In this document: positions 38,522 through 41,522 of the stretch, in pieces
Layout: each line of letters begins with the position of its first letter
How positions within the stretch are numbered: the first letter of the stretch is position 1
Source: Nostoc linckia z4
GTDB lineage: Bacteria > Cyanobacteriota > Cyanobacteriia > Cyanobacteriales > Nostocaceae
Direction of reading: 5' to 3'
DNA: 64,000 nt
NCBI RefSeq assembly: GCF_002608075.1
Contig: NZ_LAHA01000021.1
Coordinates: 1 to 64,000, forward strand
Notes under the pieces: model-generated
Seen by the model: the letters and a program-made list of their open reading frames with translations, nothing else
Databases searched by the model: none
Told to the model about the DNA's origin: nothing
Program-made: the position numbers and the translations under genes

Positions 38522-39085
38522 TTAACCATTGTCATTATCAATTAAACAATCGAAAGCTGCAAGAATGTATTCTTGCAGCCTATACTCATATCCGGCTGCT
38601 GACGAAGTAGCGAGAGCTTCTTGAGTACCTGTAACCCCAGTTACGTTTTTTGATATTTCGCGACAAGAGACAATGGCAACATCAAATCGGCAGGAATAAT
38701 CTGCTTTTTCAGGGTATTGGGCTAAAAACATTCCCGCTGTACGGGAAATTTTGCTTTGCTTTTGCGGGGTAATTGCGCTTCTTCCTCCCGCATCCCAACT
38801 GCCAAAACTGCGGGTTTTGACTTCCACAAATGCCAATATTGGCTGGGGAGTACGGAGTGGAGAGTTAGGAGTTAGGAGTGAGGAATTATTGTCTTTGTCT
38901 CCTTGTCTTTTCATCTCCCCATGTCCCCATCTCCCCATCTTCCCAGTTCCCTCGCAATATTCGGCGATAATATCAATTTCTCCCCAACGGCAGGAAAAGC
39001 GACGATGTAGAATTACCCAACCTGTAGATTGCAACCATTGGGCTACTAAGTCTTCTCCAAAATGACCAGTTTTAAGATATTTCAT
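38522..39085 (-). CDS. yraN: YraN/UPF0102 family nuclease-fold protein, 5' end replaced by an integrase element
   Basis: 187 residues with the UPF0102 core: FGEDLVAQWLQSTGWVILHRRF, WGEIDIIAEY and, later, FVEVKTRSFG. The Glu/Asp and EVK residues form a PD-(D/E)xK-like site; the family's role is unclear. Two oddities stand out. Residues ~44-81 are a low-complexity insert (MGRWGHGEMKRQGDK...) between the two halves of the active site. The present N-terminus (ATG-AAA, then YLKTGH) begins at the left 17-bp repeat of the integrase element; a TATAAT box (39097-39102, minus strand) sits just upstream in element DNA. The likely original first codons lie at 40900-40923. Confidence 0.85.
   Translation of the reverse strand: MKYLKTGHFGEDLVAQWLQSTGWVILHRRFSCRWGEIDIIAEYCEGTGKMGRWGHGEMKRQGDKDNNSSLLTPNSPLRTPQPILAFVEVKTRSFGSWDAGGRSAITPQKQSKISRTAGMFLAQYPEKADYSCRFDVAIVSCREISKNVTGVTGTQEALATSSAAGYEYRLQEYILAAFDCLIDNDNG
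38843..38956. repeat. In-frame repeat insertion within yraN
   Basis: Contains CTCCCCAT/CCCCATCT units (38916-38943) and GAGTTAGGA heptamers (about 38858-38882). About 38 codons that YraN relatives lack keep the frame open. Confidence 0.7.
39063..39079. repeat. Left attachment repeat (att core copy 1)
   Basis: TGACCAGTTTTAAGATA, inside codons 3-8 of the current yraN frame; identical to 40883-40899. Confidence 0.82.
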
Positions 39086-39150
39086 AATAATCCAGTATTA
39101 TAGAGTTATTTAACAACTTTAATCGCCTCAATTTACTAGAGGATTACTAG

Positions 39151-40422
39151 ATGTACTCAAAGCAACGTGATAGCAAGGCTTCCAAGAAATTAGCTGATGT
39201 AAACATAGGTGTAGACAAGGGTTCTCTACGCTTGCAGTTTAGTACACGTATAAGTCGTAAATTTTACGACAAAAAGCAATTCTATAAAGGGCTGGGTAGG
39301 AGCGATACACCAGAGAATCAACAGTGGGCTGAAGGAATAGCCAGACGGATACAGGCTGATATTGACCATCCAGACGGGGGGCTGTTTGACCCTACCCTTG
39401 CTAAGTATCTGGATATAAAGCCGATGCTAGCTACAGTTACCCAGTTACCGACCGCAAAACCATTGCCGAAGTTAGGGGAACTGTGGGAAGAGTTTCTGGA
39501 ATGGAAGCGTAGTCGCGTCAAAAAAACTACTTACCAAGGAATGTATATTCGTACTTACACGGCTTTATTAAAACCATTTCTAGATAAACCTTTAAACAGT
39601 AACCTAGCAAATGAAATTTTTGAAGCATTGAACAAAAAGAAAGCCAACAGAACTACTACCAGAAATTTATTATGTGTCTTAAGCACATTAAGTAAAAGAG
39701 CGATAAAAAAAGGGTTAATAATAGAAGATTATTTTGATGAAATTAAAGACGCTTACAAAGTACCAAAAAAATCACGGCAATTGAAAGATGAAGAGGATTA
39801 CAAAGCTTATTCAATAGAAGAAAGAGACTTGATAATTGAAACATTTTATCAATCTGATAAAAACAGTGAAAAACATATTGCCCCATTGATTGAATTCTTA
39901 TTCCTTACTGGGTGTAGACATGGTGAAGCGTTCGCTTTGCAATGGAAGGATGTTAAATTTGAGACTGGATGGATAGTCTTTGACGAAAGCTTTGCGTCTG
40001 AAATTCGTGAAACACAATCAACCAAAACCGATACTACCAGAATTTTTAAAATGAAGGGACTAACACGACTTCAGAAGGTATTAAACTCCCTCAAGGATAA
40101 TAATTGTAATCCAGATGATTTAGTATTTAAAACTTCAACAGGAAAACAAATGTCTACAGCAATATTAAAAGCTGCATGGTTAGGTGGGGGATATACTAAT
40201 CATGGAAAACATTACAAATATCTTGGTGCTGTAGCTAGATTAGCAAAGGAAGGTGGAATTAAATATTTAAAAGCTTATGCTACTAGGCATACTTTTATTA
40301 CCATTATGGCTAATAATGGTGCTGACTTAGCATTATTAGCTGATTGTTGTGGTAACAGTGTTGAAATAATAATCAAGCACTACTTACAGCTAGATAAAGA
40401 ACGACTACTACCAGACATATAA
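39151..40422 (+). CDS. Tyrosine recombinase (phage-type integrase)
   Basis: 423 residues. The N-terminal region resembles the Arm-DNA-binding domain of Min27-type integrases (GSLRLQFSTRIS-KFYDKKQFYKGLG, then AEGIARRIQADID and FDPTLAKY). A SAM-like core-binding domain follows from ~110 (LGELWEEFLEWKRSRVKKTT). The catalytic domain has the first Arg in LFLTGCRHGEA, the second Arg in YATRHTFI, and a likely nucleophile Tyr in IKHYLQL. The usual His of LGH-S is Asn here (CCGNSVEI) and HxxR is YxxR, so the active site is slightly atypical. ATG 39151 overlaps a TTACTAGA motif. It sits 72 bp inside the left att repeat. Confidence 0.92.
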   Translation: MYSKQRDSKASKKLADVNIGVDKGSLRLQFSTRISRKFYDKKQFYKGLGRSDTPENQQWAEGIARRIQADIDHPDGGLFDPTLAKYLDIKPMLATVTQLPTAKPLPKLGELWEEFLEWKRSRVKKTTYQGMYIRTYTALLKPFLDKPLNSNLANEIFEALNKKKANRTTTRNLLCVLSTLSKRAIKKGLIIEDYFDEIKDAYKVPKKSRQLKDEEDYKAYSIEERDLIIETFYQSDKNSEKHIAPLIEFLFLTGCRHGEAFALQWKDVKFETGWIVFDESFASEIRETQSTKTDTTRIFKMKGLTRLQKVLNSLKDNNCNPDDLVFKTSTGKQMSTAILKAAWLGGGYTNHGKHYKYLGAVARLAKEGGIKYLKAYATRHTFITIMANNGADLALLADCCGNSVEIIIKHYLQLDKERLLPDI

Positions 40423-40882
40423 ACCCACCTTCCCCCAATTTATCCAACAACCTCAATCAGGTATTTAGTCATAACCCTTATTCTGTATAGCTTTCATTAC
40501 TTTAATTTGAATATGTAACTAATCAAGAGGAATAAAAAAGGTTGATAGATTGCGATCGCTCACCTTGTTTTGATTATGTAACGAATTCAAGCCAGGTAGT
40601 GAGCGACTGGAAGGTACATTACATTCGTGTCTACCCTTGTTAGTGAAACTTGTTTAGAAGTTATCTAATAACTTTAGACATGTAGAATAGAGATGAATTT
40701 GCGCTCTCACTGTTGAACATCAGTCAATTGATTTACAAAATCAAATTAGAAAATTACTAGACAGTTAATCACCCTGAGATGCTAGTTCAAATGTACTAAA
40801 AAGGGTTAAATACTAGAAAGTTAGTAGAAATTAAGAGATAGTAGGTTGAAAGTATTGATATTAGGAACCTTTTACTAATTAT
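40423..40882. other. Noncoding right arm of the integrase element
   Basis: 460 bases, AT-rich, with no gene. It contains two TTACTAGA-like motifs (40752-40761, 40808-40817) that match two near the left end (39131-39140, 39142-39151), candidate arm-type integrase sites. Confidence 0.55.
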
Positions 40883-40899
40883 TGACCAGTTTTAAGATA
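40883..40899. repeat. Right attachment repeat (att core copy 2)
   Basis: TGACCAGTTTTAAGATA, identical to 39063-39079. The adjoining 40900-40923 encodes, on the minus strand, the probable original yraN start. Confidence 0.82.
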
Positions 40900-40922
40900 A
40901 TGAGATGGAGGAAGGTTAGTCA

Positions 40923-41522
40923 TTGACTAAAAACATCATGAATTCCATGAATTCTAGGTTAAGCGATCGCATAAAAGTTTCTCAATTAAGCTCATCCCAT
41001 AATGAGTTGCAATTGAAGCGTAGAAGATATTATTTGATTTGGGCAACCATACTCAGCTTATTTGTTTGGGGAATAGTTGGCCTCACAGCAACCATCGGTT
41101 TTGCTCCCGGAGCTTTGGCACTGGAATACAATAAAGAAATTTTGGTAGAAGCTGATTTTTCCGGACGTGATTTAACAGATTCCAGCTTCACAAAAGCTAA
41201 TCTTCGTCAAAGCAACTTCAGTAATTCTAATTTAAGCGGTGTCAGTTTCTTTGCAGCAAATCTGGAGTCCGCGAATTTGGAAGGAGCTGATTTGACAAAT
41301 GCCACACTAGACTCAGCTCGCCTGATTAAAACAAACTTAACAAATGCAGTTTTAGAGGGGGCGTTTGCTGCTAACACCAAATTTGATGGTGCAATCATTG
41401 ACGGAGCAGATTTCACCGATGTGCTACTGCGTCCAGATGAACAAAAAAAATTGTGCAAAGTCGCTAAAGGCACTAACCCGGTTACAGGACGAGATACGCG
41501 TGATACGTTATTTTGTCCATAA
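40923..41522 (+). CDS. Membrane-anchored pentapeptide-repeat protein
   Basis: 199 residues. I keep the TTG start at 40923 because GGAGGAAGG (40906-40914) is at ideal spacing; ATG 40938 is possible but too far from it. A transmembrane or signal helix ([21 protein letters not shown], ~residues 39-60) ends near ALALEYN. Then come about eighteen A(D/N)LxX pentapeptides ([20 protein letters not shown]...), forming a right-handed beta-helix, and a short C-terminal domain with two Cys. Lumenal proteins of this kind are common in cyanobacteria; function unknown. Its start region abuts the displaced original yraN start. Confidence 0.8.

Follow-up and report, generated by a model that had tools for sequence, protein, structure and literature searches.

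A probable cargo-free integrative element that re-caps yraN in Nostoc linckia z4, with relatives at other gene starts

Introduction

Several mobile elements are described that enter genes at or near their 5' ends. The dusA-specific elements (IMEVchUSA3 and those with DAI integrases) have a tyrosine integrase, insert at the 5' end of a housekeeping gene and give it a new N-terminus (PMC8409611, PMC4482086). They use a single target gene in Proteobacteria and carry large cargo, and their promoter was shown by experiment. Likewise, SXT/R391 integrates at the 5' end of prfC, where it brings a new promoter and N-terminus (PMC8409611). At torS, DNA of the HK022 prophage similarly replaces the upstream DNA of the gene (PMC6814406).

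Heterocyst elements (nifD/XisA, hupL/XisC and others) are also recombinase units that split genes, here in heterocystous cyanobacteria, and some are integrase-only. PMC4874684 surveys 101 interruption elements and places those with tyrosine recombinases in six orthologue groups. Here we describe a small unit inside the yraN gene of Nostoc linckia z4. It lies in a stretch of 64,000 nucleotides, called the window below. A first-pass annotation, made from the letters, had inferred that it is a mobile integrase-only unit and had connected it with the heterocyst elements.

Results

The unit inside yraN

The features of the locus are collected in Table 1. The 17-bp direct repeat TGACCAGTTTTAAGATA is present in two exact copies, and the repeated unit measures 1,820 bp (39063-40882). 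It consists of one tyrosine integrase and 460 bp without genes, and it is inserted at native codons 9-14 of yraN. A single integrase ORF lies between the repeat copies (PF00589, E=4.4e-15). No excision factor was recognised in the window copy. The first-pass annotation had described an exact repeat around one recombinase gene, with the left copy inside the yraN frame, and so it stands.

A third copy of TGACCAGTTTTAAGATA is absent from the 64-kb window at up to three mismatches. At this threshold, 0.34 matches are expected in the window, and 4 of 100 shuffles gave at least two. The exact pair, set against this expectation and the shuffle control, rules out a chance origin of the repeat.

Table 1. 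Features of the yraN locus, in window coordinates.
Feature	Position	Strand	Basis
Left core repeat (attL), within the yraN frame as it stands	39063..39079	+	Exact repeat; position set by the empty sites
Right core repeat (attR)	40883..40899	+	Exact repeat; empty sites
Tyrosine integrase, 423 aa, with arm-binding, core-binding and catalytic domains	39151..40422	+	PF00589, PF12167
Two putative left arm-type repeats WTACTAGA, 39133-39140 and 39144-39151, 11 bp apart	39133..39151	+	Motif match
Two putative right arm-type repeats WTACTAGA, 40754-40761 and 40810-40817, 56 bp apart	40754..40817	+	Motif match; same spacing in the nblS and 210A DUF3110 elements
Right arm region of the element, without a gene	40423..40882	+	Similarity to G000:C25:77782-78196
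Present yraN frame (UPF0102), which starts with ATGAAA (39085-39080) from the element	38522..39085	-	ORF list, UPF0102 match
Displaced native yraN start, codons 1-8, MTNLPPSH	40900..40923	-	Joined to yraN in 34 of the 48 loci surveyed
TATAAT letters, a candidate only, 11 bp upstream of the yraN ATG now in use	39097..39102	-	Sequence reading
Pentapeptide-repeat gene, native neighbour of the yraN start	40923..41522	+	ORF, domain match, loci of relatives

In the inserted state the yraN frame is open, and the element supplies a new in-frame N-terminus. The occupied gene begins MK-YLKTGH, in which MK comes from element DNA. Beyond the right repeat copy, the minus strand reads MTNLPPSH in frame into that copy. 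The proposal that these residues join yraN in frame was borne out by this reading and by the empty sites of relatives.

The gene also contains translated short tandem repeats (38844-38951). With yraN as the query, 29 matches were obtained in the window genome, mostly weak and within this tandem-repeat part.

The yraN site in related genomes

The set held 53 same-genus genomes, and 48 yraN loci were surveyed in 48 of them, the window genome included. The native start is contiguous with the rest of yraN in 34 of these loci. The integrase element occupies two (the window genome and G005), a different insert is present in ten, and two were unclassed by pattern (G065 and G017). Read by eye, G065 also has the different insert. 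In G018, G019, G026, G028 and G017 the yraN match starts at the first native residue. No yraN match was found in G027.

Wherever both could be placed without an insert, the native yraN start abuts the pentapeptide gene. The empty-site core of one relative (G021), TATCTAAAATCTGGTCA, is identical to the window repeat at 15 of 17 positions. Contiguous empty sites with the predicted yraN junction therefore exist, so the proposal withstands the main refuting condition that the annotation had set, and removal of the element would restore the native start beside the pentapeptide gene. The annotation had predicted that excision would exchange the promoter and first residues of yraN and restore this junction. 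The residues and the junction are supported by the empty sites of relatives; the promoter is considered below. The present ATG was rejected as the normal start of yraN. Its upstream DNA was found solely in the two genomes with this integrase, and no integrase-free strain among the 48 loci has it.

The second occupied genome, G005, has a match that fits Nostoc calcicola FACHB-3891. Its integrase is 96% identical to that of the window and lies at the same yraN site, with 5.1 kb between yraN and the pentapeptide gene. There, yraN starts with ATGAAATAT, taken from element DNA, and its frame is intact. We found no match to the right end of the window element in G005 and no clean core repeat at the far junction. 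By its sequence, this copy seems to have lost its right end. Between the window and G005, dS is 0.14 for the integrase, 0.44 for yraN, 0.45 for the pentapeptide gene and 0.18 for the next gene. The low integrase value may reflect recent transfer between the two genomes, but the next gene is nearly as low. The dN/dS value of the integrase is 0.16.

For yraN, dN/dS is 0.19 between the two occupied genes. Against five empty relatives, the window gene gives values of 0.27-0.44, and the ten pairs of empty genes, used as a control, give 0.28-0.40. The window copy behaves like the empty pairs, so it shows no sign of relaxed constraint. The G005 gene has values of 0.22-0.30 against the same five relatives, except for 0.69 against the nearest one (G008; dS 0.10, a low divergence). 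This last value could be noise or relaxed constraint.

The different insert lies at the same yraN codons in 11 of the 53 genomes (ten by pattern and G065 by eye). It gives yraN a new ATG, within ATGCATTRTC (L040-L046, L130, L135, L136 and L139). One of these inserts (L040) has a 182-aa ORF without a Pfam or PHROG match. When the left ends were compared, shuffled sequences did as well in fractions of 0.0045 to 0.10 (two correctly anchored rows, L013 and L030; L011 and L025, mis-anchored by the pattern, are left out). These inserts may be decayed members of the family described below. From its sequence, this insert may represent a second re-capping of yraN, either independent or decayed.

A related element of the same genome

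Positions 40454-40862 of the window are 77% identical to G000:C25:77782-78196, the right end of another element of the window genome (G000). The 460 bp that had been described as noncoding DNA do lack a gene. They are not inert, however: they form the right arm of the element, as seen from this match and from the arm-type repeats.

The second element, on contig C25, is about 4.8 kb long and is flanked by TTTATAACAAG. A HAMP-domain sensor-kinase gene, which we take to be nblS, has its ATG 23 bp beyond the right core. The element carries a SprT-like protein and three small proteins without Pfam matches. It also encodes a helix-turn-helix-like protein (labelled by eye), for which the PHROG hits, to repressors, are weak. 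In the window copy, both ends and the integrase are present and all of this cargo is missing. In codons 1-110 of the integrase, the two copies are identical at 323 of 330 DNA positions. A perfect 96-bp in-frame tandem duplication occurs in the C25 integrase gene (L047, 7524-8897) where the near-identity to the window integrase stops. Regarding the site itself, 20 nblS loci were compared. One is that of the window genome, the six others readable by pattern are all contiguous, and 13 were unmatched by pattern and remain uncounted.

The family and its target genes

Related integrases were found at E<=1e-70 in 6 of the 53 same-genus genomes. Named records yielded 12 loci in Nostoc and Calothrix, of which three match only over a short N-terminal stretch. 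Members of the family, with integrases at least 50% identical, have yraN, a DUF3110 gene, moeB and nblS as 5'-end targets, and probably thiE as well. The first-pass annotation had not recognised this family. Where the target is a coding sequence, the element restores a start codon. With thiE left aside, the assigned cores range from about 35 bp upstream of the start codon to codon 14.

The DUF3110 gene is occupied in four genomes. There, ATGATTACACCA remains at the left end, and ATGATTACGCCTATG comes from the right end. Among the 30 DUF3110 loci read, 28 are contiguous and two are element copies. In Calothrix brevissima NIES-22 the moeB gene (ThiF family) is the target; the copy there has an 18-bp repeat and provides a new ATG. 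In the window genome, the left end of a moeB copy is on contig C50 and the right end on C114. We infer that they belong together, since the genome gave a single moeB match. Of the 20 moeB loci, 18 are contiguous in relatives, one is that of the window genome and one is unread. The thiE copies of two strains are apparently integrase-only; their target is taken from the divergent thiE start beside the integrase, and no core repeat was found in them.

The cargo at the DUF3110 site varies. A ParA-like ATPase is present at L092. At L093 and L095 a 260-aa protein, for which Pfam gave no significant match, precedes an AlkB-like 2OG-Fe(II) oxygenase.

Two peptide patterns gave no relatives in viral contigs, and three plasmid records match at 28-34%. 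No phage structural genes were noticed in the elements read, part of which was covered by the PHROGs scan. Our literature searches and Table 1 of PMC4874684 gave no description of this element family.

The letters upstream of yraN

As the annotation had read them, the start of yraN is an ATG-AAA from element DNA, with TATAAT 11 bases before it. A scan with a sigma-70 pattern gave no promoter-like pair at this TATAAT; the scan had 8 sites, against a mean of 8.3 in shuffled sequence. The letters come from a block, GTATTCTAG (GTATTATAG in the window), which recurs at the integrase end in the nblS, DUF3110 and CHAB copies. At nblS and DUF3110, it is the other end that faces the target gene's start. 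The block is thus conserved regardless of which end faces the gene, and this does not argue for a promoter of yraN. Its role as a promoter is unproven.

Arm-type repeats

The motif WTACTAGA occurs eight times in the 64-kb window, with 3.9 expected. Six of 100 shuffles reach eight, so the window total alone is not striking. Four of the eight lie inside the unit, all on one strand. When eight sites were placed at random, at least four fell within 1,837 bp in 124 of 20,000 trials.

The offsets from the left core are 71, 82, 1692 and 1748 in the window unit. In the nblS element they are 71, 82, 4654 (with one letter changed) and 4710, which gives the same 11-bp and 56-bp spacings. The DUF3110 element of 210A also has these spacings, with one letter changed. 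The right-arm spacing is 53 rather than 56 bp in the LEGE 12450 copy, and the right arm is laid out differently in the moeB copies. These motifs are plausibly arm-type binding repeats.

Domains of the integrase

Of 13 family members, 11 match the arm-binding domain PF12167; the window copy does so weakly (E=0.0058), below the curated cut-off. The predicted structure is poor at the N-terminus (pLDDT <50 for residues 1-51). Outside the N-terminal domain, the integrase resembles the Tn1549 and lambda integrases.

Identities were compared for the N-terminal, core-binding and catalytic parts, in this order. Between the yraN and nblS integrases of the window genome they are 100, 45 and 56%. Between the window integrase and four DUF3110 copies they are 81-82, 42-45 and 57-58%. 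For pairs with the same target, core-binding identity is 82-100%. Between the nblS and CHAB 5844 integrases it is 68%, and the CHAB copy has no assigned target. The arm-binding domains thus appear alike across the family, and the core-binding domains seem to track the target. We read the near-identity of codons 1-110 as probable exchange or conversion between copies, with the arms and the arm-binding domain kept and a different targeting module.

Discussion

We interpret the window unit as an integrated, cargo-free member of a family of small integrative elements of Nostoc-type cyanobacteria, inserted at the yraN core in a lambda-like way. We give this reading a probability of roughly 0.85. 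It is based on the identical end cores, the empty sites in most relatives, the arm-binding integrase, the two arm-bearing ends and the relatives at other 5' ends. Points that speak against it are the missing sign of an excision factor in the window copy, the poor N-terminal model, the deviating right arms of the moeB and LEGE 12450 copies, the similarity of the nblS and CHAB 5844 integrases and the far junction in G005.

In the proposed mechanism, the circular form would contain the right arm, the core and the left arm. The integrase would recombine this circle with the corresponding core in yraN (native codons 9-14), presumably in the lambda manner. An ATG at the integrase-side end, in frame with the core, would then re-cap yraN and leave it usable, and the native start would return if the reaction ran backwards. 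Each target would be re-capped by whichever end faces it: the integrase end at yraN, and the right end at DUF3110, moeB and nblS. Across the family, the arms and the arm-binding domain would be common, with core-binding and catalytic parts that vary with the target gene. The present-day mobility of the window unit is unproven.

An alternative is that the unit is a dead remnant of a larger element, which lost its cargo and any excision factor and is now immobile. Relatives do carry cargo between the same ends, and the G005 copy is decayed at one end. However, the integrase ORF is intact, with the low dN/dS against the G005 copy given above. The cores are identical, all four arm repeats are present, and the copies beside thiE in two other strains are apparently integrase-only as well. 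We consider a dead remnant improbable.

The connection with heterocyst excision is not supported. It supposes that the integrase excises the unit in differentiating cells and rebuilds yraN, as in nifD, hupL and fdxN. The host group fits, and nifD is interrupted in the window genome. This gene is split there by about 32 kb (G000 contig C64:39351-40685 and 73134-73262), as in known nifD elements. Moreover, PMC4874684 reports integrase-only interruption elements of about 1.3 kb and could not locate the target for 44 xis-like genes, which means that a family of this kind may have escaped that survey. Nevertheless, yraN has an open, re-capped frame with the unit in place; it is not dead, and so no excision is needed. 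In G005 it is intact although the element copy lost its right end. The window integrase is not detectably close to the ORF beside the 3' piece of nifD (28% over 39 aa, phmmer E=0.08). That ORF, the one compared, has a weak PF00589 match below the cut-off and was taken as the nifD-element recombinase. Furthermore, yraN, DUF3110, moeB and nblS are absent from the 22 interrupted orthologues of Table 1 in PMC4874684. Taken with these points, a heterocyst-type element is very unlikely.

Returning to the integrated element, we give even odds to a broader idea. The family may be specialised on gene starts, with one arm-binding domain and arm layout re-aimed through the core-binding and catalytic module. 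Each lineage would bring its own version of the start region, fitted to its target, and could thereby enter housekeeping genes without loss. If true, the window unit would be the smallest complete form: an attachment site and an integrase, nothing else.

The family would offer a cyanobacterial case of mobile DNA that occupies housekeeping genes harmlessly by re-supplying their start. It would also be a natural series of integrases in which the arm-binding part is constant and the target changes, and target choice could be tested by domain swaps. In such strains, the upstream regions of yraN, DUF3110, moeB and nblS may be element DNA and not native promoters.

Compared with known systems, the heterocyst elements interrupt the gene body and need excision, whereas the window unit re-caps yraN. 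The integrases of the cyanophages PaV-LD, Lbo402-yong5 and Lsp-JY17 belong to the same broad family, with 27-30% identity over 90-96% of the query (four phage records). HK022 is a phage and its core lies outside the coding sequence; the nblS copy is alike in this position, but the yraN copy is not. SXT/R391 is conjugative and of about 100 kb, whereas no conjugation genes were seen in the elements described here. In contrast to the dusA elements, this family has several targets, occurs in cyanobacteria, goes down to 1.8 kb and has an unproven promoter. Its targets (yraN, DUF3110, moeB, nblS and probably thiE) also differ from dusA and prfC. Nevertheless, it does the coding part of dusA/prfC-type capture, at several genes and in very small units. 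For this reason we file it with that kind: by analogy, the family is one of 5'-end-targeting integrative elements of the dusA/prfC type.
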